64,000 nucleotides of DNA, taken from a virus. The notes under the pieces were generated by a model. It searched no databases. It was not told the DNA's origin and saw only the letters and a list, made by a program, of their open reading frames with translations. Location of the stretch: positions 41,249 to 105,248 of IMG/VR virus record IMGVR_UViG_3300027792_000015, one strand, 5' to 3'. A program made the translations under genes and the position numbers. This document shows, in pieces, positions 566-19,231 of this stretch (position 1 is the stretch's first letter; the number at the start of each line of letters is the position of its first letter).

Positions 566-961
566 ATGAAAACAATACTTATGTTTAAAGATTATAACAA
601 ATATAAAAATATACTTTTTGATGTCTCCACAAAAGAACAAGAGAAAAAAATATACGCTTATATTTTGAAAAAATTCTTAAATAAAAAGAAGATGATTAAA
701 ACCCAAAAAGAAAATATGGCGAGAGTTGATTTCAGTTGCAAGGCTTGTAAAAACAAACGCTTTATTATAGCAGACAATGAAAAATATCCGTGCCCAATTT
801 GTAGGGCCGATGATTCGGATTTTATGTATCATGCGGGAGTGATTAAAAACATAGATTTTCTTTATGATAAAGCCCTAAACGGTAATAGAAAATCATTTAG
901 ATATTTGATGGAATACTATTACGACGGCTACATAGAATATTTAAATGTGAAAGAAATATGA
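566..961 (+). CDS. Hypothetical protein with zinc ribbon (131 aa)
   Basis: An unrecognised protein. Residues about 55-80 hold two knuckles, CKAC and CPIC, separated by about 17 residues, which looks like a zinc ribbon. The N-terminal half is Lys-rich and probably helical; the C-terminal part is Tyr-rich. The ribosome binding site AGGAAG precedes the ATG. The stop overlaps the start of the deformylase gene by an ATGA, which suggests translational coupling. Confidence 0.7.
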   Translation: MKTILMFKDYNKYKNILFDVSTKEQEKKIYAYILKKFLNKKKMIKTQKENMARVDFSCKACKNKRFIIADNEKYPCPICRADDSDFMYHAGVIKNIDFLYDKALNGNRKSFRYLMEYYYDGYIEYLNVKEI

Positions 962-1440
962 TTATAACAAACGCCGCACAATTAAAAATTCCGTGCAAAA
1001 GGATATCAATTTTTGAGGCATTTCCAGTAATTGATTTACTTAAAATAGAATTAGAGCGCCATAAGAATGGCGTAGGTCTCGCGGCCAATCAAATAGGTAT
1101 AGATGCTTGTGTTTGTGTTGTGCAATCAAATGAACTAATAGCCTTAATTAATCCGGTCATTGTTGGTGCATACGACTTGGTTGAATTTAAAAACGAAGGT
1201 TGTTTAAGTTTTCCAAATCAATATATAACAACCAAACGACATAATGAAATTTTTGTGAAGGATGATTTACACCCATATGGTTTGATATTTTATGGGTTTG
1301 AGGCCGTTCAAGTTGAGCATGAGGTAGGCCACTTAAACGGAGAAACTATGTTTGATTATGAAATAAAAATACCACAAAGAAACGAGAAATGTTGGTGTGG
1401 CAGTGGAATCAAGTATAAAAATTGCCATGGTAAAAAATAA
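958..1440 (+). CDS. def: Peptide deformylase with C-terminal SEC-C zinc motif
   Basis: Peptide deformylase removes the N-formyl group from new polypeptides at the ribosome exit. All three family motifs are visible: GVGLAANQIG at 38-47, EGCLSFP at 80-86 with the metal-ligand Cys, and HEVGH at 121-125 with the two metal-ligand His and the catalytic Glu. The family more often has an Asp where this protein has Gly (HExxH is intact). After the enzyme domain comes a SEC-C-like knuckle, CWCGSG...C-H, at 145-157, as seen on SecA and several ribosome-linked proteins. At 160 aa it is near the usual length. It starts inside the previous stop (ATGA). Confidence 0.9.
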   Translation: MIITNAAQLKIPCKRISIFEAFPVIDLLKIELERHKNGVGLAANQIGIDACVCVVQSNELIALINPVIVGAYDLVEFKNEGCLSFPNQYITTKRHNEIFVKDDLHPYGLIFYGFEAVQVEHEVGHLNGETMFDYEIKIPQRNEKCWCGSGIKYKNCHGKK

Positions 1441-3730: not shown

Positions 3731-4249
3731 ATGGTAAAAATTCAACCAAAATTTAAAGTCGGAGACACAGTGTTCGCCACTAAAATTGATGAAGAAGTTA
3801 GTGTTATTGCCGTTAATGTTAATGAAGAAAACATAAATTATACTCTATCAAGACAATATGTAATGCCCGAAATTTACTTAGAAAAATCAAGAGAGAGCGC
3901 TTCATATAAAAACAGCATCGACTGTCTGATAGAGAAAAATAATATATGTTTTAATAATATAGAACAGGCGGAAAACGAAATTAAACGTCAAGAAGAAATA
4001 TTAGAAAAATGTTCAGCAAAGTTAAACAATAAACGAGAATCTGTAAAACCCAGAAATATAATTGATGATTGGAGGGTAATCAGTTATATTAATGATTTAT
4101 ATCTCGAAATCTCCCAAGCAAAACATTATATTAAAAGAGGCAAAGCTCGCATTAAAAGTTTAAAAAATAATTTAAAAACAAACAATGAAAAAATAAAAGA
4201 ACTAAAAAAAGAAATGTTGGTGTTAGAATTGTCAGGAATAATGAAATAA
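3731..4249 (+). CDS. Coiled-coil paralogue family, copy 1 (172 aa)
   Basis: One of three related proteins in the window (also 15793 and 16284). The shared layout is a short N-terminal beta segment beginning PKFKVGDTVF, then about 110 residues of predicted coiled coil rich in Lys, Glu and Asn, ending in a hydrophobic tag of the form E[HYM]L[IV]..L[AS]GI. The function is unknown. The domain order resembles a small SH3-like head on a coiled-coil stalk; that is inference. Confidence 0.7.
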   Translation: MVKIQPKFKVGDTVFATKIDEEVSVIAVNVNEENINYTLSRQYVMPEIYLEKSRESASYKNSIDCLIEKNNICFNNIEQAENEIKRQEEILEKCSAKLNNKRESVKPRNIIDDWRVISYINDLYLEISQAKHYIKRGKARIKSLKNNLKTNNEKIKELKKEMLVLELSGIMK

Positions 4250-4286: not shown

Positions 4287-4490
4287 ATGATGAATAAAAG
4301 TGATACTGACCAAATTTATGTTTCTGTGTTGAAATTTAATAGGTCAATTTGCCACGAAGGCGAACTGATTAAATTATTACTTCCAAATACCCCAGTGATT
4401 GTAAAGTTTATAAAAATAACCGGCGGCCAAACTGCGTGGCTTCTTGATCGTCACGATAGAGACATATACAACTTTTACGGAGAACAATAA
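4287..4490 (+). CDS. Tiny-paralogue family, isolated upstream copy (67 aa)
   Basis: This is the first copy of the tiny-paralogue family, 0.8 kb before the main array. The family motif IYVSVLKFNRSI is at residues 10-21. The tail is longer than in most copies. A second ATG at 4290 is equally possible. Its stop overlaps the next start (TAATG). Confidence 0.7.
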   Translation: MMNKSDTDQIYVSVLKFNRSICHEGELIKLLLPNTPVIVKFIKITGGQTAWLLDRHDRDIYNFYGEQ

Positions 4491-5070: not shown

Positions 5071-5322
5071 ATGAAAAACGAAGAAATGGAAACAATGTAT
5101 GTGGAGTGCATGTGTGAAGACCAATCACACACTTTAAGGTTTTCACAAATAGGTGAAGATGTTTGTGTATCAATGCACCTAACTATGTTTGGATTTTGCG
5201 TCCGACTTTGGAATGCTCTGAAATATATCTTTGGCCATCGATCGAAGTTTGGTGATTTCGAGGAAACCATTTTGGAAAGAAAAGATATAAAAAAGATAGT
5301 TGGGTTTCTGAAAAATGTCTGA
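5071..5322 (+). CDS. Hypothetical protein (83 aa)
   Basis: Not recognised. I take ATG 5071, preceded by GGAG at 5061-5064; a TTG at 5059 is in frame but lies on the ribosome binding site. It contains several Cys (VECMCED, DVCVSM). The stop overlaps the start of the first array member (ATGTCTGA). Confidence 0.65.
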   Translation: MKNEEMETMYVECMCEDQSHTLRFSQIGEDVCVSMHLTMFGFCVRLWNALKYIFGHRSKFGDFEETILERKDIKKIVGFLKNV

Positions 5323-5488
5323 ATATATGCAAGATTTTTATAAATCTGTTTTTAAATACGGGACGAAAATTATAAAAAAATACGAATTATGTAGTAATAA
5401 TTTGTCCATTGATTTAAAAAACAAGGGTGGGTATTCCGGGATTAGATATTATTTTTATTGCAGGATAAATAAATATGATATTGACTGA
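5315..5488 (+). CDS. Tiny-paralogue array member (57 aa)
   Basis: This is the first gene of the array proper. The motif FYKSVFKYGTKI is at 8-19, and the tail is rich in Tyr (IRYYFYCR). It starts inside the previous stop and its end overlaps the next copy by 14 bases. Confidence 0.7.
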   Translation: MSEYMQDFYKSVFKYGTKIIKKYELCSNNLSIDLKNKGGYSGIRYYFYCRINKYDID

Positions 5489-5653
5489 CGAAGAAAGAAT
5501 ATTGTATATTAAAAGAATATATATTTATCTTTTAAAAAAAAAGGAGTGATAGCAAAAAGCCATACACGTGATGCTTTTTATCATAGCGTAGTTACGATTG
5601 GTGTTCCGGGAGACATATTTTGTGCAGACAATTATTTATCTGAATGTAGGTGA
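5475..5653 (+). pseudogene. Tiny-paralogue array member with frameshift at an A9 run
   Basis: ATG 5475 opens a frame with the motif IYIYLLKK at 15-22 and stops at TGA 5547-5549. The rest of a normal copy (GVIAKSHTRDAF..., ending TGA 5651-5653) continues in the -1 frame. The switch point is a run of nine A followed by GG, in the register A-AAA-AAG, a known -1 slippery heptamer. It is either a decayed copy, a base-calling error in the homopolymer, or programmed frameshifting. Confidence 0.6.
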
Positions 5654-5656
5654 TTT

Positions 5657-5812
5657 GTGCAATACGGAATGATGAATGTTTATATTATGTATTTCAAACG
5701 CAAACATAGTATTTATGCCGGCGGTAAAATTAAAGAATTTAATAATATATATTTGCGTGTAGATTTTATAATTAATGGGTATGTTAGGGGCTACACTATA
5801 CTGCAAAAATAA
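5657..5812 (+). CDS. Tiny-paralogue array member (51 aa)
   Basis: The start is GTG 5657, chosen because the DNA matches the ATGCAATA[CT]GAAATGAT starts at 6149 and 6450. The motif VYIMYFKRKHSI is at 8-19. The tail ends GYTILQK. Confidence 0.65.
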   Translation: MQYGMMNVYIMYFKRKHSIYAGGKIKEFNNIYLRVDFIINGYVRGYTILQK

Positions 5813-5826
5813 TGTTGGAGTAAGTT

Positions 5827-5985
5827 ATGCGCGAATCTATGAAAATGGTTTATGTTAAATTTCTAAAACACAAACAAATAATATACAAATATGAAATTTA
5901 TCAATATTTTGGCAAAGAATTTGTAGCGATAGAGTTTAATGGTTTTGGCGTTTGGCCTTACCGAGTTTCAATAGAGGTAATATAG
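5827..5985 (+). CDS. Tiny-paralogue array member (52 aa)
   Basis: This is one of the few copies with a clear ribosome binding site (GGAG about 10 bases upstream). The motif VYVKFLKHKQII is at 8-19, followed by a Tyr/Phe-rich tail. Confidence 0.7.
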   Translation: MRESMKMVYVKFLKHKQIIYKYEIYQYFGKEFVAIEFNGFGVWPYRVSIEVI

Positions 5986-5995
5986 GTGGCAGACT

Positions 5996-6136
5996 ATGCA
6001 GCAACATATGAAAATAGTTTATATTAGATTTATGAAAAAACAACAACAAATATGTGCATATAAAATTAGACTCAATTATCTGACGGTAGATTTTAATATA
6101 TTCGAAAGTATTTGGCATTATTATATCAATTTTTAA
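5996..6136 (+). CDS. Tiny-paralogue array member (46 aa)
   Basis: The motif VYIRFMKKQQQI is at 8-19. Its N-terminus (MQQHMKIVYI) parallels the preceding copy (MRESMKMVYV), suggesting a recent neighbour duplication. Confidence 0.65.
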   Translation: MQQHMKIVYIRFMKKQQQICAYKIRLNYLTVDFNIFESIWHYYINF

Positions 6137-6148
6137 GAAAGTTAAATC

Positions 6149-6277
6149 ATGCAATACGAAATGATGCAAATATATACTAAAATTTTAAAACATGGTCGTA
6201 AAATTGATTCTTATAGTATGTTGTTTGATTCTACTTGTTTAGAGGTTAATATTTTTCCTTCCACTTATTTTATATAA
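6149..6277 (+). CDS. Tiny-paralogue array member (42 aa)
   Basis: A short copy of the MQYEM subgroup, with IYTKILKHGRKI at 8-19. The C-terminus is truncated relative to most copies. Confidence 0.6.
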   Translation: MQYEMMQIYTKILKHGRKIDSYSMLFDSTCLEVNIFPSTYFI

Positions 6278-6291
6278 TATCGGAGTAGTTT

Positions 6292-6447
6292 ATGTGTGGT
6301 CTTATGAGGATAGCGTATATATGTGTTTTAAAAAAGAATTGTGATATTTGTATATCCGATCGCATTCCAACTACATCTGGGTATGATAAAATTAAATCAA
6401 AACCACCATCGAACGACATCTGCTTTTATATTTCGGATAAATTTTAA
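6292..6447 (+). CDS. Tiny-paralogue array member (51 aa)
   Basis: CGGAG lies about ten bases before the ATG. The motif AYICVLKKNCDI is at 8-19. The tail (GYDKIKSKPPSND) is more polar than usual. Confidence 0.65.
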   Translation: MCGLMRIAYICVLKKNCDICISDRIPTTSGYDKIKSKPPSNDICFYISDKF

Positions 6448-6449
6448 TC

Positions 6450-6593
6450 ATGCAATATGAAATGATTGACCTTTATATTGAAATCCTAAAATATGGTTCC
6501 AAAATTAATAAATATTATATGGTTGGTAATGATTATTTGGGTTTAGATATTTATATTTTCCATTTTTATATTAAACAGAAAGAACAACAATGA
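6450..6593 (+). CDS. Tiny-paralogue array member (47 aa)
   Basis: MQYEM subgroup, with LYIEILKYGSKI at 8-19. Its last codon and stop share the ATGA that starts the next copy. Confidence 0.7.
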   Translation: MQYEMIDLYIEILKYGSKINKYYMVGNDYLGLDIYIFHFYIKQKEQQ

Positions 6594-6727
6594 CTGATGC
6601 GATGAAGAAATTTTATATTTATGCTTTAAAATATGGATACGGGATTTACATAAATGAGTGGCGGTCAATTAGCCTCGGCGGCGATAGAATTTGTATTGAG
6701 CTTTATCCTCCCACGAAAAATTCTTAA
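6590..6727 (+). CDS. Tiny-paralogue array member (45 aa)
   Basis: It is coupled to the previous copy by ATGA. The motif FYIYALKYGYGI is at 8-19. The tail carries a strand-like DRICIELY. Confidence 0.7.
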   Translation: MTDAMKKFYIYALKYGYGIYINEWRSISLGGDRICIELYPPTKNS

Positions 6728-6747
6728 TTTTGTTTTAAGGTAAAATA

Positions 6748-6906
6748 ATGGACTGTATGATGCAAGTATTTTATATTAGTATATTAAAACAAAAATATAT
6801 ACCAGAAATAACAGAAAAGTTAATAACTTCTGATGGCCGTCATAGGGTTTTTATTAGATTAAAAGGCGTAGATTATTCTGAATTCTTTTTTACAAGCGAG
6901 TTTTGA
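6748..6906 (+). CDS. Tiny-paralogue array member (52 aa)
   Basis: It has its own AAGG ribosome binding site. The motif FYISILKQKYIP is at 8-19, with the final Ile replaced by Pro. The tail is HRVFIRLKG...FFFTSEF. Confidence 0.65.
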   Translation: MDCMMQVFYISILKQKYIPEITEKLITSDGRHRVFIRLKGVDYSEFFFTSEF

Positions 6907-6908
6907 TT

Positions 6909-7052
6909 ATGCAACAATCTATGGTAAATTTATATATTGATGTATTAAAATATAATTACCACATTGTGGGAGCATTTTCAGCAGAATATTATAATTTATA
7001 TTTCACATTGCGTGAAGACTACACACATTATTTTTTTATAGAGAAAACGTGA
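6909..7052 (+). CDS. Tiny-paralogue array member (47 aa)
   Basis: The motif LYIDVLKYNYHI is at 8-19. The tail is aromatic (YYNLYF, YFFIEKT). The stop overlaps the GTG start of the next copy (GTGA). Confidence 0.65.
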   Translation: MQQSMVNLYIDVLKYNYHIVGAFSAEYYNLYFTLREDYTHYFFIEKT

Positions 7053-7192
7053 ACACTCACTCAATATACATTGACTTTTTCAAAAACAAATTCCCAATTG
7101 TTTGGTATCACGTTTTTGAGAGCGGCGGAACTTGGTGGGTTGAAATCGAAACAGAATGGAATAAATATTTTATACGACAAGGCAAACAATGA
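7049..7192 (+). CDS. Tiny-paralogue array member, GTG start (47 aa)
   Basis: It starts at GTG inside the previous stop. The motif IYIDFFKNKFPI is at 6-17, two residues earlier than in most copies. A Trp-rich strand (GTWWVEIETEW) follows. Confidence 0.65.
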   Translation: MNTHSIYIDFFKNKFPIVWYHVFESGGTWWVEIETEWNKYFIRQGKQ

Positions 7193-7365
7193 GTATTCCA
7201 AATAGTATGCAGTCAATATATATTCAAATTTTAAAATATAAATGGTCAATAACAAAGTCTTATCCAGTAGTGAGATTTTGTGGCATTGATAGTGTGGCCA
7301 TAGAAATAAATTGCCTGCCTTATATACTGGTGCAAAGGGCGCAAAATGACAGAATGTGGCATTAA
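7189..7365 (+). CDS. Tiny-paralogue array member (58 aa)
   Basis: It is coupled by ATGA. The motif IYIQILKYKWSI is at 10-21. It overlaps the next copy by 20 bases, so the last six codons are read in two frames. Confidence 0.65.
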   Translation: MSIPNSMQSIYIQILKYKWSITKSYPVVRFCGIDSVAIEINCLPYILVQRAQNDRMWH

Positions 7366-7504
7366 TTCTCTATATATTAGTTTATTTAAAAACAAACACA
7401 CAATAAAAGATTATCGAATATTTAACCTTAATGGTTTTTCATTTATTATCATCTACACAAATGAAAACTTCAACAATAAATATTATGTTCTTTCAGGAGT
7501 CTAA
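7346..7504 (+). CDS. Tiny-paralogue array member (52 aa)
   Basis: It starts 20 bases inside the previous gene. The motif LYISLFKNKHTI is at 9-20. Its stop directly abuts the next ATG. Confidence 0.65.
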   Translation: MTECGINSLYISLFKNKHTIKDYRIFNLNGFSFIIIYTNENFNNKYYVLSGV

Positions 7505-7720
7505 ATGTATAATTATATTGCACCAAATGGTTTTTGCAAAAATGCAATTTTTGGCATATATATTCAAATTTTCAAAAACAACTGGTCCGGCAGAGTGGTT
7601 GGAAGAGTAAATGAAAAATTATGCACAAGTATAACAATAGAATTAACAGACCCAAAAAATAAATATAATTGTGAAACAATTTATAAAGAATTATTTGCCG
7701 GAGATTTACGGACACGATAA
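7505..7720 (+). CDS. Tiny-paralogue array member, extended N-terminus (71 aa)
   Basis: The motif IYIQIFKNNWSG is displaced to 18-29 by an N-terminal extension (YIAPNGFCKN). GGAG lies before the ATG, in the last codons of the previous copy. Confidence 0.65.
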   Translation: MYNYIAPNGFCKNAIFGIYIQIFKNNWSGRVVGRVNEKLCTSITIELTDPKNKYNCETIYKELFAGDLRTR

Positions 7721-7724
7721 CAAA

Positions 7725-7883
7725 ATGACAGAAAATATAAGACAAATTTATAGGCAAGTTTTTAGGAACAAATGCACCTTGTGGCAAAAAACAGACACTG
7801 AAATAATAGTGATGCATAACACTTTACAATTATATAGACTTTATGTTTGTGAGGAGCCGGTGCCAGGAATTTATTTTTTCTAA
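7725..7883 (+). CDS. Tiny-paralogue array member (52 aa)
   Basis: I use ATG 7725; longer in-frame starts would run into the previous gene. The motif IYRQVFRNKCTL is at 8-19, with Arg in place of the usual Lys. Confidence 0.65.
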   Translation: MTENIRQIYRQVFRNKCTLWQKTDTEIIVMHNTLQLYRLYVCEEPVPGIYFF

Positions 7884-7893
7884 TGAGGTAAAA

Positions 7894-8049
7894 ATGGATT
7901 GGAAAATAGCAAACATTTATCGCGGTGTTTTTAAGTTTGGCGAAAAAATCGAAGTTATAAAAGCAAACAAAAACTTTTTAATGGCCAGCACGACAGATTG
8001 TGATGGTTATAAGACTTTATATTATTTATATAGTCTTGAAAGCAAATAG
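7894..8049 (+). CDS. Tiny-paralogue array member (51 aa)
   Basis: GAGG lies before ATG 7894, so earlier in-frame starts are rejected. The motif IYRGVFKFGEKI is at 8-19. The tail ends LYYLYSLESK. Confidence 0.7.
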   Translation: MDWKIANIYRGVFKFGEKIEVIKANKNFLMASTTDCDGYKTLYYLYSLESK

Positions 8050-8057
8050 GTAGAGGT

Positions 8058-8234
8058 ATGACAATGCTACCATATCGAACAATTTATCGCAGAGTTTTAA
8101 AATATAACTATACTATGACACAAAGAAATATAAATAATTATGGGATACATAGTGAAATTTCTTTTTGGTTGGGGCAAACACTAGCAAGCTCATTTATTGT
8201 TTATGGTAATGGAGTTTATTCTTGGAGAACTTAA
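8058..8234 (+). CDS. Tiny-paralogue array member (58 aa)
   Basis: AGAGG lies close to the ATG. The motif IYRRVLKYNYTM is at 9-20. The last base of its stop is the first base of the next ATG. Confidence 0.65.
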   Translation: MTMLPYRTIYRRVLKYNYTMTQRNINNYGIHSEISFWLGQTLASSFIVYGNGVYSWRT

Positions 8235-8338
8235 TGGCAATTCCAATAGCGTGTGAAATGACATATATAAAAGTTTTAAAATACGGCTACACGATGGAAC
8301 AAACGAAAAAATGCTCACCGAAGCCAGAAACAGCGTAG
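8234..8338 (+). CDS. Tiny-paralogue array member, truncated (34 aa)
   Basis: The motif TYIKVLKYGYTM at 10-21 is normal, but the frame ends at TAG 8336 after 34 residues, the shortest copy. The following DNA encodes part of an unrelated family (see 8311-8397), so this looks like a recombination junction. Confidence 0.55.
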   Translation: MAIPIACEMTYIKVLKYGYTMEQTKKCSPKPETA

Positions 8339-8397
8339 AAAAAGCAAAGAGAAATTTTTTGATTATGAAATTAGCGGGGTTAAGTCGCAACACCTAA
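8311..8397 (+). pseudogene. Remnant of the coiled-coil family C-terminus
   Basis: A 28-codon frame opening at ATG 8311 encodes ...VEKAKRNFLIMKLAGLSRNT. The FLIMKLAGL block matches the C-terminal tags of the coiled-coil proteins at 3731 (MLVLELSGI), 15793 (LIIQLAGI) and 16284 (LILYLAGV). It overlaps the truncated array copy in another frame. It appears to be a fragment left by recombination between the two families. Confidence 0.5.
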
Positions 8398-8460
8398 AAT
8401 GTTGCGTGGATTGAAACAAACAGAATTCTATGGCCCTCACTTTATTTGGACTGGAAACCG

Positions 8461-8622
8461 ATGCAAGTAGAAATGAAATATTTATACATAAACATACTTA
8501 AATATAACAACAAAATATATAAAATGAAGCTCTCCAATTACTGGCTAATATTACAAGCAAACGATGAAGCACAAAATTATCATAAAGTTTATATTATATA
8601 CGACAAGGAAATAAATGACTAA
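8461..8622 (+). CDS. Tiny-paralogue array member (53 aa)
   Basis: It starts at the repeated junction ATGCAAGTAG. The motif LYINILKYNNKI is at 8-19. Between 8399 and 8470 a 23-codon frame ending in ...GNRCK could be the tail of a lost copy. Confidence 0.65.
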   Translation: MQVEMKYLYINILKYNNKIYKMKLSNYWLILQANDEAQNYHKVYIIYDKEIND

Positions 8623-8767
8623 TGGCATGAAAGATTTATATATCTATGTATTTAAAGAAAATTGCAAAATATATAAACCATTTTATTGGGGTGACTACCT
8701 TGTGATTAATTGTAAATCATCATTTAGTGATCCTGTCTTTGATTGCTGGATTAAAACATGCAAGTAG
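8615..8767 (+). CDS. Tiny-paralogue array member (50 aa)
   Basis: MTNGMKD subgroup; the first 20 bases are repeated exactly at 9368. The motif LYIYVFKENCKI is at 8-19. It ends in ...TCK at the ATGCAAGTAG junction. Confidence 0.7.
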   Translation: MTNGMKDLYIYVFKENCKIYKPFYWGDYLVINCKSSFSDPVFDCWIKTCK

Positions 8768-8913
8768 ATATGCAAAATGTTTATATAGATTTCTTTAAGC
8801 ATAATTACACAATAAAACAAACATCACATTATAGTAAGTGGTGGAAACTTGTTATTAGAAATAGTAAGGGAACTTATTATTATAACTATTATTATCGAGT
8901 GAAACATAAATGA
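8758..8913 (+). CDS. Tiny-paralogue array member (51 aa)
   Basis: The motif VYIDFFKHNYTI is at 8-19. It is a close sister of the copy at 9224: both have QNVYI[DN]FFK, a WW[KQ]LVI strand and a YYYNY tail. Confidence 0.7.
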   Translation: MQVDMQNVYIDFFKHNYTIKQTSHYSKWWKLVIRNSKGTYYYNYYYRVKHK

Positions 8914-9071
8914 CAGAAGAAATGCAAAGTTTATATACAAAGATAATTAAGTATAATTACAAAATATATGAGGTAGGATATTTGGACGCTTGGTGTATAT
9001 TATATGTTAAAAGTAAAAGTGCTAATGGGTTTTACACACAAAATTGTTTTATTGAATGGAAACATGAATGA
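8910..9071 (+). CDS. Tiny-paralogue array member (53 aa)
   Basis: ATGA coupling on both sides. The motif LYTKIIKYNYKI is at 8-19. The tail has a strand-like WCILYVKSKS. Confidence 0.7.
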   Translation: MTEEMQSLYTKIIKYNYKIYEVGYLDAWCILYVKSKSANGFYTQNCFIEWKHE

Positions 9072-9223
9072 CTACTGGTATGAAAGACATTTATAGATAT
9101 TTCTATAAGCATAATTATACAATAGAAAAAATTCCAACCCATTTAGGCAATACATTAGAGCTTCGCATAAAAGATAAGAACGATTTATCTTGCTCTTATT
9201 TTTTCTTTTATGGTGGAAGATAA
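9068..9223 (+). CDS. Tiny-paralogue array member (51 aa)
   Basis: The start MTTGMKD resembles the copies at 8615 and 9368. The motif IYRYFYKHNYTI is at 8-19. The tail contains SYFFFYGG. Confidence 0.7.
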   Translation: MTTGMKDIYRYFYKHNYTIEKIPTHLGNTLELRIKDKNDLSCSYFFFYGGR

Positions 9224-9367
9224 ATGATTAAAGATATGCAAAATGTTTATATAAATTTCTTTAAGTATAATCACACAATAAAACAATATGGTAATTGGTG
9301 GCAACTTGTTATTGGAAATAGTAGTGGAGGCTATTATTACAACTATTGTTGTCGGGTGGAAAAGTAA
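9224..9367 (+). CDS. Tiny-paralogue array member (47 aa)
   Basis: A sister of the 8758 copy, with VYINFFKYNHTI at 8-19 and the tail YYYNYCCRVEK. It abuts the genes on both sides with no spacer. Confidence 0.7.
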   Translation: MIKDMQNVYINFFKYNHTIKQYGNWWQLVIGNSSGGYYYNYCCRVEK

Positions 9368-9508
9368 ATGACTAATGGCATGAAAGACATTTATATCTAT
9401 GTATTTAAGTTTGGTTTCAAAATATATCAAAATCACACTTACCGCGATTTTTGCGAGTTTTATGTGGTTGGCCCTCTTGAAACTTTGCGTCTTTGTGTAA
9501 TTGATTAG
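9368..9508 (+). CDS. Tiny-paralogue array member (46 aa)
   Basis: A sister of the 8615 copy at the DNA level. The motif IYIYVFKFGFKI is at 8-19, but the tail (FYVVGPLETLRLCVID) is unrelated to its sister's, so the two halves evolve at different rates. Confidence 0.7.
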   Translation: MTNGMKDIYIYVFKFGFKIYQNHTYRDFCEFYVVGPLETLRLCVID

Positions 9509-9520
9509 TGGAGAAATATT

Positions 9521-9694
9521 ATGATACCGAGTGCAATGAAATTTGTATATATAAAATCATTTAAGGGTGGTGATAAAATTCATGCATATCACAATCATCA
9601 CGAACTTGGTTTTCTTGAAATTTGTTTTAAGCATTGGTTTGTTGGCAGTATAATAAGGCGTTTTATTCACTATGGAAAACGAAAATGCAAGTAG
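9521..9694 (+). CDS. Tiny-paralogue array member (57 aa)
   Basis: It has its own GGAG site. The motif VYIKSFKGGDKI is at 9-20. The middle is His-rich (HAYHNHHELG). It ends ...KCK at the third ATGCAAGTAG junction. Confidence 0.65.
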   Translation: MIPSAMKFVYIKSFKGGDKIHAYHNHHELGFLEICFKHWFVGSIIRRFIHYGKRKCK

Positions 9695-9837
9695 CAATGA
9701 AAGACATTTATATAAGTGTATTTAAATACAATCATAAAATATATGATTATTATCCCTATGATGATTTATGCGTAATCTATATTAAAGATAAATACAACAT
9801 TTTTACGGGGAGATATAATGTCAGACATGCAATATGA
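9685..9837 (+). CDS. Tiny-paralogue array member (50 aa)
   Basis: It starts at the ATGCAAGTAG junction. The motif IYISVFKYNHKI is at 8-19. It overlaps the next copy by 20 bases. Confidence 0.7.
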   Translation: MQVAMKDIYISVFKYNHKIYDYYPYDDLCVIYIKDKYNIFTGRYNVRHAI

Positions 9838-10000
9838 TATGAAAAAACTTTATATATCTATTCTTAAGCATAAAGCGCCCATACGCTCATGCACTAGACA
9901 TACCAGTGGATTTTATGTGATTAAGGCATATGTTAAAACAATTTATGTAGAAAAATTAAAGAGATACTATATTTTTAGATTACCGACGAGCAAAAAATGA
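9818..10000 (+). CDS. Tiny-paralogue array member (60 aa)
   Basis: GGGGAG lies before ATG 9818. The motif LYISILKHKAPI is at 11-22, after an extra MSD that extends the MQYDM start. The tail is basic (KLKRYYIFRLPTSKK). Confidence 0.7.
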   Translation: MSDMQYDMKKLYISILKHKAPIRSCTRHTSGFYVIKAYVKTIYVEKLKRYYIFRLPTSKK

Positions 10001-10173
10001 AAGAGCACATAAGAGAAATTTATATAAGTTTGCTCAAACGTAACTACACAGTATATGCATGTTTTAGGTCACCTGATGATTACGAATATATAATCGATCT
10101 TCGAGTAAGCTATTATTTTGCTTTCGATAGACATTTTCTTCGGCCACGGGAGTTGGAATGCAAAGAGATATGA
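9997..10173 (+). CDS. Tiny-paralogue array member (58 aa)
   Basis: ATGA-coupled to the previous copy. The motif IYISLLKRNYTV is at 8-19. It overlaps the next copy by 16 bases. Confidence 0.65.
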   Translation: MKEHIREIYISLLKRNYTVYACFRSPDDYEYIIDLRVSYYFAFDRHFLRPRELECKEI

Positions 10174-10316
10174 TAAAATTGTATGTTGATTTTTTTAAGT
10201 ATAATGTTGCAATATATAAGATGGAAACGCCAGAATATTTGGAAGATACAGTTATGGTGTTTTGTGTGTCAAAATCTAATCTTTATTATTTTAATTATTG
10301 CACTATTAGAAAGTAA
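10158..10316 (+). CDS. Tiny-paralogue array member (52 aa)
   Basis: GGGAG and TTGGA stretches precede the ATG. The motif LYVDFFKYNVAI is at 8-19. The tail NLYYFNYCTIRK resembles those at 8758 and 9224. Confidence 0.7.
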   Translation: MQRDMIKLYVDFFKYNVAIYKMETPEYLEDTVMVFCVSKSNLYYFNYCTIRK

Positions 10317-10319
10317 TAT

Positions 10320-10508
10320 ATGATGCCACTTAATATAAAAAGCATTTATTTGAAATATTTTAAATTTAACCTTCCGATATTATCATTTTCTGAATCTGGA
10401 TATGATGAGGGTGGATACATAATTGATATTAAATCAACTCTTCCTACATATTTGGAGAGATATATTCTACTGCCAACATTATCTCGCCACACACTTGTTC
10501 GATTATAA
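10320..10508 (+). CDS. Tiny-paralogue array member (62 aa)
   Basis: The motif IYLKYFKFNLPI is at 9-20 when ATG 10320 is used; ATG 10323 is equally possible. The C-terminus is longer and Leu-rich. Confidence 0.65.
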   Translation: MMPLNIKSIYLKYFKFNLPILSFSESGYDEGGYIIDIKSTLPTYLERYILLPTLSRHTLVRL

Positions 10509-10521
10509 TATTTGGTGCCAA

Positions 10522-10665
10522 ATGTCTTATGAAATAGCAACAATATATACCGAATTATTTAAGCACAAGGGAAGAATAATTGGTTTTAATCACTTAAACA
10601 CTTACTATGACATAACAATAAGTTTGTATGGTTCCTATGACGCGCATCACTTATATATTACTTAA
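10522..10665 (+). CDS. Tiny-paralogue array member (47 aa)
   Basis: I use ATG 10522; a longer in-frame start would overlap the previous gene by about 85 bases. The motif IYTELFKHKGRI is at 8-19. Confidence 0.65.
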   Translation: MSYEIATIYTELFKHKGRIIGFNHLNTYYDITISLYGSYDAHHLYIT

Positions 10666-10675
10666 AGGGAAAAAT

Positions 10676-10822
10676 ATGCCAGATAAAATTAGACATCTTT
10701 ATATGTGTATGTTTGTTTGGGGCTGGACTATAAATAAAATAATTGAAAGAAATAACCATTATAGTATAGAAATTTTTTCTGATTCAATGAAGTATAAATA
10801 TAATTATAGATTGGAAAAATAA
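10676..10822 (+). CDS. Tiny-paralogue array member, atypical motif (48 aa)
   Basis: The motif LYMCMFVWGWTI at 8-19 keeps the Tyr and the final Ile, but the normally invariant Lys is Val. The tail has MKYKYNYRLEK. Confidence 0.65.
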   Translation: MPDKIRHLYMCMFVWGWTINKIIERNNHYSIEIFSDSMKYKYNYRLEK

Positions 10823-10983
10823 TGATATTGCCATATAAAATTAATAATATTTATGTATTATTGTTTAAGCGTAATTGGATTGTGAATGAAGTAATTGAGA
10901 GAGATGAATGTTATGATATTTATATATCTGCTTCACCTCGCATAATCAGCGCATGGAATTTATATAGATTGGACAAACAATGA
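10822..10983 (+). CDS. Tiny-paralogue array member (53 aa)
   Basis: TAATG overlap with the previous copy and ATGA with the next. The motif IYVLLFKRNWIV is at 10-21. It is a sister of the previous copy: both have E.[IVN].ER[DN].{2}Y.I and a .Y+L[ED]K tail. Confidence 0.7.
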   Translation: MILPYKINNIYVLLFKRNWIVNEVIERDECYDIYISASPRIISAWNLYRLDKQ

Positions 10984-11177
10984 CTTGGGCAATGAACAGA
11001 ATTTATTTTAGGTTGCTAAAACATAAAAATACAGTTGTTTCAGTAGATAAGCAAAATGAAATAAATGCATATGTTGTAAAATTACGCGACCAAACATCCC
11101 AGTGTGTTTATACTTACGTTCTTTATGACGATAATTCACCAGCAATAGTATTTAATAAAGGATCAAATAATGATTGA
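10980..11177 (+). CDS. Tiny-paralogue array member (65 aa)
   Basis: This is the last copy before the first interruption. The motif IYFRLLKHKNTV is at 8-19. It overlaps the nucleotidyltransferase start by eight bases. Confidence 0.7.
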   Translation: MTWAMNRIYFRLLKHKNTVVSVDKQNEINAYVVKLRDQTSQCVYTYVLYDDNSPAIVFNKGSNND

Positions 11178-12431: not shown

Positions 12432-12572
12432 ATGGATCGTAATATTAGTAGCCTATACATAAATATATTTAAAAATAACTGTAAAGTTTATGAGTTTGTA
12501 AATGAAAAAAACTTGTATATTATTAGAGTGGAATTACGCGGTTGGTATAAGCCATGTTTTTTGTGGAAATAA
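12432..12572 (+). CDS. Tiny-paralogue array member (46 aa)
   Basis: It starts directly after the Cys-rich gene stop. The motif LYINIFKNNCKV is at 8-19, followed by LYIIRVEL. Confidence 0.7.
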   Translation: MDRNISSLYINIFKNNCKVYEFVNEKNLYIIRVELRGWYKPCFLWK

Positions 12573-12589
12573 TATAGAAAGCGGTTGAA

Positions 12590-12730
12590 ATGTATTACCT
12601 TATGAGTGTTGTATATATTAGTGCATTAAAAGATAAATGTAAGATTAATATTGCAGAAGATGAATTCTCATATATTGTTTGGGTTGTTCCAAAAATTGGG
12701 TATAGTGTTCCCTATTATCTAAAAAGGTAA
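12590..12730 (+). CDS. Tiny-paralogue array member (46 aa)
   Basis: The motif VYISALKDKCKI is at 8-19. The tail has the strand SYIVWVVP and ends PYYLKR. Confidence 0.7.
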   Translation: MYYLMSVVYISALKDKCKINIAEDEFSYIVWVVPKIGYSVPYYLKR

Positions 12731-12734
12731 TTGA

Positions 12735-12875
12735 ATGAGATACGAAGTGTTTTATATGTATTTTTGGTTGTTTAAACATAATCTTAAAGTTATTGAGTTT
12801 ATAGAAGAGGAAAATGAATATATAATTTATCTTGAACCAGGTCGTAGCTTGCGTCCATATGTTTTTAAAAAATAG
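12735..12875 (+). CDS. Tiny-paralogue array member (46 aa)
   Basis: The motif MYFWLFKHNLKV is at 8-19. The tail EYIIYLEPG...YVFKK parallels the two copies before it, so these three form a local subgroup. Confidence 0.7.
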   Translation: MRYEVFYMYFWLFKHNLKVIEFIEEENEYIIYLEPGRSLRPYVFKK

Positions 12876-12888
12876 AAAGAGAATTATA

Positions 12889-13014
12889 ATGATTTATGGT
12901 ATGCGTTATATTTACAAGAAGTTCTTTAAATATAATTACAAAATTATAGGATTTGAGTATAAAAATGAAAAATTATTAATTTATGTTAATGATATGTTTC
13001 CACGTGCCATATGA
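12889..13014 (+). CDS. Tiny-paralogue array member (41 aa)
   Basis: A short copy with IYKKFFKYNYKI at 8-19. A GAGA stretch lies before ATG 12889; the upstream in-frame start is rejected because it lies in the previous gene. It ends inside the next start (ATATGA). Confidence 0.65.
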   Translation: MIYGMRYIYKKFFKYNYKIIGFEYKNEKLLIYVNDMFPRAI

Positions 13015-13184
13015 AATTCTTTGTTAAGGCGCCGGGCATGAGTTATTATATGTGTAGTATTTATATACAGTTGCTTAAATATAAATACAAAATTATAAAA
13101 TTTAAAGAAACAAACGATAAATTAATATTTTATTTTGATGATAATATTATCGACCTATCTTTTCCCTACGAGGTTAAAAAATGA
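13011..13184 (+). CDS. Tiny-paralogue array member (57 aa)
   Basis: With ATG 13011 the motif IYIQLLKYKYKI is at 17-28. Starting at the internal ATG encoding residue 10 would restore the usual register, so the true start is uncertain. It is ATGA-coupled to the next gene. Confidence 0.65.
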   Translation: MKFFVKAPGMSYYMCSIYIQLLKYKYKIIKFKETNDKLIFYFDDNIIDLSFPYEVKK

Positions 13185-13639: not shown

Positions 13640-13977
13640 CAGACGCTTTTATACAAGAACTATTAAATAAAAAACGTCTTGGCAAAGAGAAACTAAAATT
13701 AGTGTTAAATGAACTTTTCAAAAGAGGAAATTTGGACCAAGAGGACATAAAATACAATGAGTCAAAATTTCCCTTCACCAATAAAGAGTTTGCCGCTGCG
13801 TTTGAGCACTTGGTCGATGGCAAGAAACCATCGAACGCGACGAACGACAACGAAGTGTGGATTTTTGACCACAGGGGCCATATTTTTACGGCAGAAATAA
13901 TCATGGGCCAAGGGTCATCATATATTTTATCAATGGGTTCTCGTTACTCAAAGTTGCCAGTGATAAAATTAAAATGA
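13624..13977 (+). CDS. Hypothetical protein (117 aa)
   Basis: Not recognised. The first half is helical and basic; the second half contains a strand-rich VWIFDHRGHIFTAEIIMG. It overlaps the previous gene by 16 bases and the next array copy by ATGA. Confidence 0.6.
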   Translation: MDKNLADAFIQELLNKKRLGKEKLKLVLNELFKRGNLDQEDIKYNESKFPFTNKEFAAAFEHLVDGKKPSNATNDNEVWIFDHRGHIFTAEIIMGQGSSYILSMGSRYSKLPVIKLK

Positions 13978-14132
13978 GTCCATCGATTTATAGATTATAC
14001 GTGGATATATTTAAGCACAAAATAAAGGCAAAGTGGAAGACCCGTAAGGGTGAAAATTATTTTATGATTTATTCGAGCCAGGAAAATGGAATAAACCACT
14101 TTTATTTGTTGGTTGAAACTAAAAATGGATAA
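13974..14132 (+). CDS. Tiny-paralogue array member (52 aa)
   Basis: First of the YRLY subgroup (SIYRLYVDIFK). The motif LYVDIFKHKIKA is at 8-19, with Ala at the usual Ile. It overlaps the next copy by eight bases. Confidence 0.7.
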   Translation: MSPSIYRLYVDIFKHKIKAKWKTRKGENYFMIYSSQENGINHFYLLVETKNG

Positions 14133-14283
14133 GTCAGTTTATAGATTATATATAGATATTTTTAAAAACAATATTAAGGCCGACTGGACTGTTACCTATA
14201 TGATTGATTATGTGTGGGTTGTTGCGGAAGAAGACAATTATGGGTTTCGTAGTTACTTTTACATATTACAGGAAATAAAATAA
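14125..14283 (+). CDS. Tiny-paralogue array member (52 aa)
   Basis: A sister of the previous copy (SVYRLYIDIFK, IKADW against IKAKW). The motif is at 8-19. TAATG overlap with the next copy. Confidence 0.7.
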   Translation: MDKSVYRLYIDIFKNNIKADWTVTYMIDYVWVVAEEDNYGFRSYFYILQEIK

Positions 14284-14504
14284 TGGATTATTCTGTTCGT
14301 GAAATGTATATAAATATTTTAAAATCAAGATCAAAAATATACGATTATCATGTTTATTTTGATAATTCTGTCCGAATTTCTGTTATAGGTAATAATTTTA
14401 AAAGATATCACGTTATACTTGTTTCTTCTAATAAACTTAAAAATAAACATATAATTTGGTCGCGTTATGGACTTTATAATAATCCACGCAAGCATTGGGA
14501 ATAA
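14283..14504 (+). CDS. Tiny-paralogue array member, longest (73 aa)
   Basis: The motif MYINILKSRSKI is at 8-19. The C-terminus is extended (HIIWSRYGLYNNPRKHWE), making this the longest copy. Confidence 0.7.
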   Translation: MDYSVREMYINILKSRSKIYDYHVYFDNSVRISVIGNNFKRYHVILVSSNKLKNKHIIWSRYGLYNNPRKHWE

Positions 14505-14506
14505 AT

Positions 14507-14662
14507 ATGAGTTCAAACATTTATAGACTATACATTAATATTTTTAAATACGGCGGTCGAATACTAAATCAATTTACAGAACATAATGGAGATATAGTAA
14601 TAAACTTATCAAATAGTTGGTTTTGTTCTGTTTTAAGGAGTAAGAATGATTTACCTGGATAA
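14507..14662 (+). CDS. Tiny-paralogue array member, last of the array (51 aa)
   Basis: YRLY subgroup, with LYINIFKYGGRI at 8-19. It runs 17 bases into the cysteine desulfurase gene, so the ribosome binding site AAGGAG of that gene lies in its coding sequence. Confidence 0.7.
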   Translation: MSSNIYRLYINIFKYGGRILNQFTEHNGDIVINLSNSWFCSVLRSKNDLPG

Positions 14663-15809
14663 TCAATCATCTACTAAAATAGATAAGCGTGTTTTAAAAG
14701 CAATGGAACCCTATCTAACAGAACATTTTGCAAACCCAGCAGCAGCCCATTTTGCGGCAGAGGAACCACGGCAAGCAATCGAAATGGCTCGCAATAATGT
14801 ATCTTACTTGATTAAGGCAAAACCAGAAAATTTATATTTTACTAATTCAGCAACAGAATCGAATAATATAGTTTTACAGGGTCGTTTAGCGAATCATAGG
14901 AAAAATAGCAATAATGCCGCAATCATTATTACATCAAACATAGAACATTCTTCTGTTTCAAAAACGCTTCAAAATATGTGGTCGAAAGATAATCTTTTTT
15001 TCAATCAAACTTTAAAGATAAATAGCAACGGTGAAATTGATTTAGACAAACTCAATCATACAATTAAAAATTATTTCAGCAATCGTGTTATTCTGGTTTC
15101 TATCATAGCGGCGAGCAACGAAATAGGTGTAATAAATAATCTGTCCGACATAGGTGCGATTTGCAAGCGTCACAATGTTTTATTTCACACAGACGCAACA
15201 CAGGCAATTGGAAAAGTTGATATTGATGTCAATGCCATGAATATATTTGCTTTGACTTTCAACGCTCACAAAATTAATGGGCCAAAGGGAGTTGGTGCTT
15301 TGTTTGTTAGAAATCCTAATTTAGTTGAGCCACTAATACACGGAGGATATCAGAACACTTTTTCATCAGGGACACAAAATGTTCCGGCAATAGTTGGGTT
15401 TGGAGAAGCATGTGATATACTACGAAAAGAAGGGAAAAAAGAAAATGAAAGAATTAGTTATAGACGTGATTTGTTATGGAGAAATTTATCTTCCAGCATT
15501 CCTGATATTTTTATCAACGGCACAATGAAAAATCGTTTGCCAAACAACCTAAACATTACTATAAAAGGAGTTAAGGCAGAAATTTTGGTCAAGGGAATGA
15601 GTGATGTTGCGGTTTCCGGAGGTTCTGCGTGTAATTCTGGAAATCTGGAACCCTCGCTGGTAATATTGGCGCTCGGAACACCCTATCCTGATTGTGCTAT
15701 AAGAATTAGTCTTGGAAGATTCACCACAATGGCCGATTGTGAATATGCGGCAAAAAAGATTAAAGACATAGTAGAAAGTGTTAGGTGCAACAATGAAACC
15801 AAAATATAA
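14646..15809 (+). CDS. Cysteine desulfurase (NifS/IscS type)
   Basis: A PLP enzyme that takes sulfur from cysteine for Fe-S clusters or thiolated nucleosides. It opens IYLDNQSSTKIDKRV; FTNSATESNN is the cofactor-binding loop, HTDATQAIG holds the PLP-binding Asp and Gln, NAHKINGPKG carries the PLP lysine (K209), and SGGSACNSGN carries the active-site Cys (C329). At 387 aa it is full length and looks intact. The ribosome binding site is AAGGAG. Inside the phage possible clients are the Fe-S uracil glycosylase at 20083 and the Cys-tailed nuclease at 29487 (inference). No DNA phosphorothioation genes are near. Confidence 0.9.
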   Translation: MIYLDNQSSTKIDKRVLKAMEPYLTEHFANPAAAHFAAEEPRQAIEMARNNVSYLIKAKPENLYFTNSATESNNIVLQGRLANHRKNSNNAAIIITSNIEHSSVSKTLQNMWSKDNLFFNQTLKINSNGEIDLDKLNHTIKNYFSNRVILVSIIAASNEIGVINNLSDIGAICKRHNVLFHTDATQAIGKVDIDVNAMNIFALTFNAHKINGPKGVGALFVRNPNLVEPLIHGGYQNTFSSGTQNVPAIVGFGEACDILRKEGKKENERISYRRDLLWRNLSSSIPDIFINGTMKNRLPNNLNITIKGVKAEILVKGMSDVAVSGGSACNSGNLEPSLVILALGTPYPDCAIRISLGRFTTMADCEYAAKKIKDIVESVRCNNETKI

Positions 15810-16287
15810 AGTTGGAGAAATAGTATTTGACAAAAACGGAGAGCAAGTAAAAGTAATTAAATTTAATCGCAATGAATATATCGTTGAGCCAATCAATAAG
15901 CGTTCAGAAAAAGAATCAGAGCTATTTGCTTCAAAATTAGAATCAGAAAATTATAGTAAAGTAAAAGATTTATTAATAGATAAAGAAAAAAAGTTAGATA
16001 AAATTAAATATAATAAGATGGAAATAAATAAGTGTAAGAAATTAATAGAAAAATTTAATCGTAAATTAGAAACCGCGCAAAATAAAATATTAACATTAAA
16101 GTCTTTTCCAGATAGATTGATAAACAGTATTTATAATTTAAGAGATGAAATATACGACAAAAAATCATATATTATAAATTGTAAAACTAATAGTCGCTAC
16201 CTAAAAGAAAATATAAAAGACATTGATAGAGATATAGAAGAACTTAAAAAAGAGCATTTAATTATTCAGTTGGCAGGTATTCAATGA
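15793..16287 (+). CDS. Coiled-coil paralogue family, copy 2 (164 aa)
   Basis: The start is ATG 15793 (MKPKYKVGEIVFD), which aligns with the N-termini of the other copies; a TTG at 15778 is in frame but less likely. A basic coiled coil follows and ends DIEELKKEHLIIQLAGIQ. The gene overlaps the cysteine desulfurase by 17 bases and the next copy by ATGA. Confidence 0.7.
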   Translation: MKPKYKVGEIVFDKNGEQVKVIKFNRNEYIVEPINKRSEKESELFASKLESENYSKVKDLLIDKEKKLDKIKYNKMEINKCKKLIEKFNRKLETAQNKILTLKSFPDRLINSIYNLRDEIYDKKSYIINCKTNSRYLKENIKDIDRDIEELKKEHLIIQLAGIQ

Positions 16288-16799
16288 AACCAAAATATAA
16301 TGTTGGGGATATAGTGCTTGATAGGCACCAACACGCATTAAAAATAATTGATATACAAAAAACTAATGGAAGAATAAAATATTTTCTAAATTTTGCCGAG
16401 CCCATAGAAGCAGATGGTGAGAGTTTGTTTAAAACAAGAGATGATGTTATACGATTTAATAATATGGAATTTTTATTGGAAAGAAATTACGAAACAAAAC
16501 GAACTATTAAGTATTACAAAAAACAAAAAAATAAGAACCAATCGATGCTGAAAAAGAATAAGGAAAAACTTCGTTGCATGAAAATAGAGTTGAAAAATAG
16601 AAAACGGCAGAATCTTGCAATTTATGGGATATCTAAAAATATTGATAAGTTAGAGCAAACAATTCAACAAAGAATACGCAAAATTAGTGCAATTAATAGG
16701 ATATTTAAAGATTGTGATGCCGAACAAAAAGAAATTAATGATAGTATTAAAGAACTTGAAAAAGAATACTTAATACTTTATTTAGCCGGAGTAAATTAG
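16284..16799 (+). CDS. Coiled-coil paralogue family, copy 3 (171 aa)
   Basis: A tandem sister of the previous gene: MKPKYNVGDIVLD at the start and SIKELEKEYLILYLAGVN at the end, with a Lys/Arg/Asn-rich helical middle. It is ATGA-coupled to the previous copy. Unknown function. Confidence 0.7.
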   Translation: MKPKYNVGDIVLDRHQHALKIIDIQKTNGRIKYFLNFAEPIEADGESLFKTRDDVIRFNNMEFLLERNYETKRTIKYYKKQKNKNQSMLKKNKEKLRCMKIELKNRKRQNLAIYGISKNIDKLEQTIQQRIRKISAINRIFKDCDAEQKEINDSIKELEKEYLILYLAGVN

Positions 16800-17211: not shown

Positions 17212-18087
17212 ATGAAAATTTGCACCAAATGTAAAGTTGTGAAAAATGAAAATGAATTTAGCAAAGATAAAAGAAATAAAGATGGACTACATTATAATTG
17301 CAGAGATTGCAATAGTGAAAGAAATAAACAATACTATGAAAAGAATAAGGGAAAAGTTATTAAACATGCAAAAAATTATTATGAAAATAATAAAGAAAAA
17401 ATTGCCATAGCAAAAAATAAATATTACCTGAACAATAAGGAAAAATTTATAGAGTATCAAAAACAGTATCGGGAAAATAATGTAGAAAAGATATACACAT
17501 ATCAAAAAGAATATCGCGCAAAAAATAATGAGAAGGTAGTAAAATATTCCAAAGAATATTGTGCGGCAAATAAATATAAAATAGCAGAATATCAAAAAGA
17601 ATACTATGTAAAAAATAAAGATACAGTAGAAAAATATCAAAAAGAATACTATGTAAAAAATAAAGATACAATTTTGATTAACATAAGACAATATTATAAA
17701 AACAATAAAGAAAAAATTTCGGGCAAGGCGAAACAATATCGTAAGAATAATCAAGAAAAGATTGCGATAATGAGAAAACACTATCGATCAAAGAATGTTG
17801 CGAAAATATCGGAAAGCTACAGAAAAAGATTGAAAACCGATATTAATTATAAATTGTCTTGTAATCTTAGGTGCCGTTTAAATAGGGCAATTAAAAATAA
17901 TCAAAAGGCTGGTTCTGCCGTTAAAGATTTGGGCTGTTCAATACCAGAATTGAAAATTTGGATAGAACAACAGTTTAAACCCGGAATGACTTGGGAAAAT
18001 TACGGTGAGTGGCACATTGATCATATAATACCTCTTTCAAAATTTGATTTAACGGATAGAAAGCAATTTTTGAAAGCTTGCCATTAG
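17212..18087 (+). CDS. HNH homing endonuclease, truncated by amber stop
   Basis: The N-terminus has a zinc ribbon (CTKC...CRDC). Then come about 14 repeats of roughly 12 residues, each like YYxxNKEKI, forming a long basic helical region. The C-terminus holds WENYGEWHIDHIIPLS, the first part of the HNH nuclease. The frame stops at TAG 18085, where the two sister genes (44754, 60934) continue with a Trp or Tyr and NLQPLWA. The missing part carries the second catalytic Asn and the final basic motif, so the product is probably inactive. Confidence 0.75.
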   Translation: MKICTKCKVVKNENEFSKDKRNKDGLHYNCRDCNSERNKQYYEKNKGKVIKHAKNYYENNKEKIAIAKNKYYLNNKEKFIEYQKQYRENNVEKIYTYQKEYRAKNNEKVVKYSKEYCAANKYKIAEYQKEYYVKNKDTVEKYQKEYYVKNKDTILINIRQYYKNNKEKISGKAKQYRKNNQEKIAIMRKHYRSKNVAKISESYRKRLKTDINYKLSCNLRCRLNRAIKNNQKAGSAVKDLGCSIPELKIWIEQQFKPGMTWENYGEWHIDHIIPLSKFDLTDRKQFLKACH

Positions 18088-18407: not shown

Positions 18408-18604
18408 ATAAAGAATACAATAATGTCAGCATAAATAATATAAAGCTTATTTATGTAAGTGTTTTTAAGCATCATCACAAAATTGCTGGGTTTGACTGGT
18501 CGGATTTGGATACAGATGTTTTATATATATCACTTACGGCACCAGATTATCTTGACATTAAATTTAGAACTGTTGATGTTCCCATTTGGATAACAAATAA
18601 ATAG
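18404..18604 (+). CDS. Tiny-paralogue family, isolated downstream copy (66 aa)
   Basis: A family copy about 3.7 kb past the array. The motif IYVSVFKHHHKI is at 16-27, very close to the upstream outlier at 4287 (IYVSVLKFNRSI). It is ATGA-coupled to the gene before it. Confidence 0.7.
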   Translation: MNKEYNNVSINNIKLIYVSVFKHHHKIAGFDWSDLDTDVLYISLTAPDYLDIKFRTVDVPIWITNK

Positions 18605-18634: not shown

Positions 18635-19231
18635 ATGATTAGTCAAATGAATATGAGCGAATTGTTTCGTAGAATAATAATTTCCGGTTCAATTAGAGAA
18701 GATACTGCCTCTCAATTTTTGGAGCAAATTACTGCTCTTGAATGTATGGATGTAACTAAACCAATTAGTGTTTATATAGATACTTATGGCGGCAGTTTGG
18801 ATGCTGCAATTACAATATATGATGCTATGAAGTCGTGTTGTTGCCCCATTAACACAATTGGAATAGGCAAAGTAATGTCGGCTGGGGTTTTGTTGTTGGC
18901 CGCAGGAGATAAAGGAAGCAGATTTATAACCGACAATACAAGGGTAATGATACACGAAGTTTCCGCCGGCGCAATTGGATCTGTAAGCGAAATGGAAGCA
19001 TCATTGGAAGAAATAAGACATCAGCAAGAAAAATATATAGAGTTGCTATCAAAAAATTGTGGTGCAAAGAAAGATGAATTATTGGAGGACATGCAGTGTG
19101 AAACATTTATGTCAGCAGCAGAAGCAGTCAAATATGGGATTGCAGACAGAATCGTTCCAATCAGACAACACACCCAAAAAACATACCCAAAACAAAAGAA
19201 GAAAGTATCAGCCAAGAAAACAAAGAAGTAA
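18635..19231 (+). CDS. clpP: ClpP-like serine protease
   Basis: A 198 aa ClpP-fold peptidase. The catalytic Ser is S82 in GKVMSAGVLLLAAG, the His is H107 in RVMIHEVS, and D152 fits the Asp. YIDTYGGSLDAA is the conserved ClpP strand and turn. The basic C-terminal tail (KKKVSAKKTKK) is unusual. The ribosome binding site AAGGAG lies before the ATG. Phage ClpP-like enzymes can act in capsid maturation or in intracellular proteolysis. No capsid or scaffold gene lies beside it here, and no ClpX/ClpA was seen in the window, so it may work with host ATPases (inference). Confidence 0.88.
   Translation: MISQMNMSELFRRIIISGSIREDTASQFLEQITALECMDVTKPISVYIDTYGGSLDAAITIYDAMKSCCCPINTIGIGKVMSAGVLLLAAGDKGSRFITDNTRVMIHEVSAGAIGSVSEMEASLEEIRHQQEKYIELLSKNCGAKKDELLEDMQCETFMSAAEAVKYGIADRIVPIRQHTQKTYPKQKKKVSAKKTKK

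Follow-up and report, generated by a model that had tools for sequence, protein, structure and literature searches.

The short open reading frames packed between positions 5315 and 11177 of the window (the whole stretch of 64,000 nucleotides analysed here, which covers bases 41249-105248 of a 105,248-base IMG/VR virus record) belong to a family of small proteins with a conserved N-terminal head and a variable tail. The virus is one of bacteria, i.e. a phage, and the family is probably best explained as a set of lineage-specific small phage proteins that lie in operon-like tandem arrays and have grown mainly by duplication of whole units, with tails diverging faster than heads. The record contains 63 members with a median length of 52 aa: an iterated profile returned 65 ORFs, from which three were dropped (one a tail fragment, another lacking the Tyr and the third antisense) and to which one was added by eye, and a 32-member profile, run independently against the record, marked 55 places. 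Most members sit in rows and are diverged from each other. The main array (5315-11177, plus strand, 28.5% G+C) holds 35 recognised members of 32-65 aa, including member 10676, which was added by eye, and stop-start overlaps are common in it, because 32 of the 34 intervals from one member to the next measure -17 to +30 nt. Further members, likewise on the plus strand, form a second cluster of five at 12432-13184, in which the pair 12889/13038 shares a 106-nt repeat (75%), and a third cluster of four at 13974-14662, whereas two members stand alone: one at 4293-4490 (weak, E 8.9e-5) and one at 18428-18604 (found by the profile). As in a tandem multigene family, many homologous genes are thus adjacent on one strand, with similarity higher between neighbours than between distant members. 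About 10 kb of the 105-kb record is devoted to 63 diverged copies of one uncharacterised small fold, and strong selection for variety is therefore suggested. The array offers a clean natural case for asking whether new small proteins come from copies that drift or from parts reassorted at a common 5' segment.

The first-pass annotation had concentrated on the block 8461-9837, which is the middle part of the tandem array and hence only a portion of a family spread across the record. All members of this block lie on the plus strand: 8461-8622 (MQVEMKYLYINILKYNNKIY...), 8615-8767 (MTNGMKDLYIYVFKENCKIY...), 8758-8913, 8910-9071 (MTEEMQSLYTKIIKYNYKIY...), 9068-9223, 9224-9367, 9368-9508, 9521-9694 (MIPSAMKFVYIKSFKGG...) and 9685-9837, followed by 9827-10000 (MQYDMKKLYISILKHKAPIR..., with its ORF start at 9818). 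Upstream, a truncated member (8234-8338, plus strand) has kept its head and lost its tail just before a CRISPR-repeat-like element. The 10-base junction ATGCAAGTAG does occur at 8461, 8758 and 9685, with no further copy on either strand of the window; shuffled sequences contained 0.08 matches on average, and none of 100 shuffles contained three. Its description as the end of one ORF and the start of the next is accurate at 8758, where it overlaps the stop of 8615-8767, and at 9685, the TAG ending the previous member in both cases, but not at 8461, where it lies within the start of the member and its TAG ends a 28-codon stretch without a family head, downstream of the truncated member and the CRISPR-repeat-like element. 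This junction is one form of several, 4-nt ATGA overlaps also being present.

The 20-base start ATGACTAATGGCATGAAAGA was likewise recovered at 8615 and again at 9368, and is also found at 9068 with two mismatches (shuffle average 0.01); the repeats shared between members mostly extend from the ATG to near +57. Members 8758 and 9224 are sisters in both head (nucleotide identity 0.87) and tail (z 12.1), i.e. as whole units, although to call them sisters over their whole length is slightly too strong, as they differ right behind the ATG (CAAGTA versus ATTAAA). In the case of 8615 and 9368, the heads are near-identical (nucleotide identity 0.83, third positions 0.80) and the tails cannot be aligned (DNA z -0.9, protein z -1.0), nor does the reverse complement align; a frameshift or an inversion of the tail was considered and rejected, there being no DNA similarity in either orientation. 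The tails had been called unrelated, but across the family they are diverged homologues and not unrelated modules: in a leave-out tail-profile test, in which sister pairs could fall into different folds, the scores of 31 of 61 tails were reached by at most five of 100 shuffled versions of the tail concerned, and those of 12 by none.

Structure prediction agrees with this. The consensus head reads M-x3-M-x3-Y-I-x2-F-K; among 60 aligned members, Tyr9 never varies and Lys14 hardly does. For member 9685, AlphaFold2 (60 family rows) predicts a helix at residues 3-14 and strands at 18-25, 28-34 and 41-47 with a mean pLDDT of 89.8, and for member 8615 (58 rows, pLDDT 86.4) it predicts the same order of elements, although the two models are not independent because most alignment rows are common to both. 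Each model has one helix plus three strands, which places head and tail, as predicted, within one small fold. Foldseek found no fold match in PDB or BFVD at E 0.001, and searches of Pfam, PHROG, NCBIfam and PADLOC with 32 and then 60 members gave scattered matches to single members, none of them common or convincing, so that no named family, whether anti-defence or other, matched the members jointly by profile or fold.

The ancestry of the heads at the DNA level was measured as the share of identical codons at positions where the heads of a pair agree in residue, pair statistics being restricted to the 61 members of at least 40 aa. In the block this share is 0.751, against 0.598 expected from codon usage, a value reached by three of 2000 random member sets, which supports a common DNA ancestry of the block heads beyond protein constraint; among all 61 members it is 0.599 against 0.593 expected. 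Along 5315-11177, it falls with order distance from 0.729 (distance 1) through 0.697 (2-3), 0.669 (4-6) and 0.610 (7-12) to 0.525 (beyond 12), a decay matched by none of 2000 order permutations, and the controls are flat with distance (0.546-0.575 for non-homologous head columns and 0.505-0.520 for tail codons), which rules out a composition gradient as the cause of codon sharing. When the array is cut into three blocks, codon identity is 0.689 within clusters and 0.579 between them (0/5000 label shuffles); if 5315-11177 is treated as a single cluster, only a weak contrast is left (0.615 versus 0.589; 481/5000). Within the block, conservation of the heads at codon positions 1, 2 and 3 is 0.591, 0.706 and 0.602, and strong protein constraint is not obvious there, since third positions are not the least conserved.

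Tails point in the same direction. Adjacent members are more alike in their heads (0/5000 permutations) and also in their tails (38/5000), tail matches are enriched among pairs with close heads (8/26 versus 92/1804), and long repeats are shared by 12889/13038 and 6149/6450. A Mantel test of head nucleotide identity against tail protein z gave a weak positive association overall (1/5000), which is weaker without member 9224 (95/5000) and absent from the block without that member (1180/5000); in the left array, several pairs run counter to the pattern, with matching tails behind heads only 0.55 alike. Codon sharing between neighbours that fades with distance, together with the likeness of neighbouring tails, argues for local duplication of whole units, and such tandem duplication is clearly indicated by the sequences as part of the history of the array. 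It is not recent: near-identical copies of one repeat length are not seen, and head nucleotide identity averages 0.51 across 1830 pairs and does not exceed 0.87. At L008:9654-9823 of the same record, a frameshift has apparently separated the head and the tail of a left-array member into two ORFs.

In the proposed mechanism, the array would grow by tandem duplication of whole units, each comprising ribosome site, head and tail, and would shrink as members are lost or truncated. The helix would be held by selection, whereas the strand-rich tail may diverge approximately three to four times faster. Recombination between near-identical heads could produce an occasional chimera (9368 or 8615 being the best candidate), which would not be needed for most of the pattern; a few chimeras on top of duplication with faster tails are thus possible and unproven. 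More tentatively, the proteins, which resemble anti-defence proteins in size and genomic setting, may have diversified as putative weapons against targets or defence systems of the host.

The first-pass annotation had gone further and proposed that tails are swapped at conserved 5' DNA, i.e. that homologous recombination within the ribosome site, start and helix codons provides heads with other tails, making the array a shuffling device. We regard this as possible but doubtful. Much of what speaks for it comes from 8615/9368, in which a head with third positions 0.80 alike precedes a tail at background: in simulations, a tail this poor was obtained in none of 100 runs under equal rates and in 31 of 100 when tails evolved three times as fast. 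With heads and tails placed on one topology of the block, the path between the two is 0.28 for heads and 2.99 for tails (0.21 and 0.25 for 8758/9224), giving a tail/head ratio near 10 compared with 2.1 for the whole block, which would favour replacement for that pair. The confinement of shared repeats mostly to the region between the ATG and near +57 is also as expected, and the record encodes RecA-, RuvC- and SbcC/D-like proteins (by Pfam), so that the means for recombination exist. The general claim was nevertheless not borne out, as tails that evolve three to four times faster than heads give the same overall pattern: a model without recombination predicts that 6.0 (threefold) or 2.4 (fourfold) of the 26 close-head pairs retain a tail match, and a detectable match was observed in four. 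Nor was a tail donor found in the array, where the sole strong tail-to-tail DNA match is that of the sisters 8758 and 9224.

Separate phylogenies of heads and tails, suggested at the outset as the deciding check, do conflict but cannot decide, because simulations on one shared tree give equal conflict (in 29/100 and 50/100 simulations for the block, and in 19/40 and 38/40 for the array). AU and SH tests mostly rejected a common tree at first, as did a bootstrap in which the estimated tree was assumed to be correct, and all became uninformative once tree error was allowed for. A possible trace of exchange within a head is seen in 9068, the first half of which resembles 9368 and the second half 8758 (score 18). 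This mosaic score is nominally unusual in the block (7/500 codon-order permutations), but it is not significant array-wide (165/300, among 27 members with ATG or GTG starts), and a scan of the left array was not significant either (79/200). In the scan of 5315-8240, where some heads may be misaligned, the maximum was ordinary (53/100) and the mean score raised (0/100).

These mosaic tests bear equally on concerted evolution, in which gene conversion would homogenise neighbouring heads and leave the tails untouched. The raised codon identity of heads at order distances 4-12, where tail similarity is already at background, would be expected from it, but local duplication alone would also produce it, because tail similarity saturates sooner than that of heads, and the mosaic tests lend conversion no array-wide support; we consider it unlikely as the main process.

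As to function, a solitary CRISPR-repeat-like element of 34 nt, with a 7-bp hairpin and a putative likeness to type I-C repeats, is found at 8384-8417 (plus strand), just upstream of the block. A second copy lies approximately 24 kb away in the same record (L008:5329-5363, 94% over 35 nt). The 3' part of the element has one exact copy at each of the two sites; allowing three mismatches, no other site is found in the window and one more in L008 (14650-14666). Both copies are single repeat-like units with no array around them, and their 7-bp stems have predicted energies of -7.9 and -8.4 kcal/mol (11/200 and 10/200 shuffles fold equally well). Searches of viral, genome, plasmid and phage collections returned nothing that matched the element. 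In the part of PMC10651486 that concerns them, solitary repeat units are described as RNA anti-CRISPRs with predicted anti-CRISPR genes enriched nearby, and a lone CRISPR-repeat-like hairpin amid small genes of a phage genome is similar; the likeness is limited to the element next to the junction and does not include the array itself. We therefore treat the two hairpins as candidate RNA anti-CRISPR elements, and the presence of one beside the block hints at an anti-defence locus. Judged by the size, multiplicity and diversity of the proteins, by its accessory location and by the solitary repeat-like hairpin that it contains, the array could be a putative anti-defence repertoire of dozens of small helix-plus-strand inhibitors built on one framework, duplicated, partly reassorted at their 5' segments and accompanied by an RNA anti-CRISPR in the same transcript. 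As a whole, this reading is a long shot; if true, many new inhibitors would be found in the array.

T4 internal proteins carry a capsid targeting sequence, and in the present family too the conserved head might be a targeting or packaging signal with the tails as cargo. Many small proteins with a conserved N-terminus and a variable remainder would fit; however, in the models head and tail fold together as a single small unit, and the profile searches brought up no virion protein that the members match jointly, making this reading very unlikely. Scarcely credible, finally, is that the heads are alike merely as a conserved helix encoded in AT-rich DNA without recent common ancestry, as the invariant Tyr9, near-invariant Lys14, low G+C and expected codon identity of the 61 members might suggest, since it is contradicted by the codon identity of the block and refuted by the distance decay with its flat controls.

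Among known systems, the passages of PMC9391042 on phage T4 under ToxIN selection describe tandem amplification of dmd-tifA, a small anti-defence gene copied by recombination at short homologies, and in this the array is similar. The T4 copies arose within the experiment, with approximately tenfold coverage, whereas those of the array are old, diverged and distributed over several clusters. In T4-type PeSL cassettes, as presented in the relevant part of PMC4503421, repeated DNA at gene borders was proposed to guide the shuffling of small genes. Repeated DNA at gene borders is common to both, but PeSLs consist of a promoter and stem-loop between genes, while the repeated DNA of the array is coding, and neither promoter-like sites (72 versus 64.8 in shuffles) nor terminator-like sites (4 versus 3.4) are in excess. 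The S-PM2 'ORFanage', covered in the same part of that source, is also a contiguous accessory block beside conserved phage genes and absent from close relatives; it is composed of orphan ORFs, whereas the array is one paralogous family. Searches of open-access literature turned up no phage array of this kind, which is no proof of absence.

The accessory nature of the site is seen in a collinear 162-kb relative (G013), whose terminase is 76% identical: the genes on either side of the array site are 18.8 kb apart in the present record and 3.1 kb apart in the relative, in which the family profile finds no match. None of 15 records with related terminases has a match at E 0.1, and among the 31 loci of cysteine-desulfurase relatives and the others searched (L010-L073) the profile gave eight matches at E up to 1, the best at E 0.18 and none convincing; one of them (L035:19137-19319, E 0.21) resembles, by eye, a head standing alone. 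No relative was found by scanning IMG/VR with degenerate patterns, seven pattern matches being rejected as the wrong frame of another gene, or by tblastn of one member against phages. As such searches are weak for proteins of 50 aa, the family may also occur elsewhere.

Several other features of the record were observed. Just downstream of the third cluster, 14646-15809 encodes an aminotransferase class-V protein, cysteine-desulfurase-like by eye and conserved in G013 and in a further relative, G007. The same accessory region holds other small sets of paralogues, seen by eye at -2906 to -1838 (upstream of the window), 3731-4249 and 15778-16799, with repeated starts that are MTLLHDAYTAYLSGLTT-like or KPKYKVGD-like. 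For a single phage, the record carries an unusual set of proteostasis genes (peptide deformylase with a SEC-C motif, ClpP, trigger factor, DnaJ and a GroEL-type chaperonin; window 958-1440, 18635-19231, 31803-33116 and 39949-40947, and L008:13708-15303). At 41881-43540, a serine resolvase with a MerR-type domain is followed by an overlapping TnpB-like gene, by eye an IS607-type pair. Lastly, a putative homing-endonuclease-like gene, identified by eye, is present in three copies (17212-18087, 44742-45593 and 60934-61599), with a zinc ribbon, repeats and an HIDHI motif, and has BLASTP relatives in G013.
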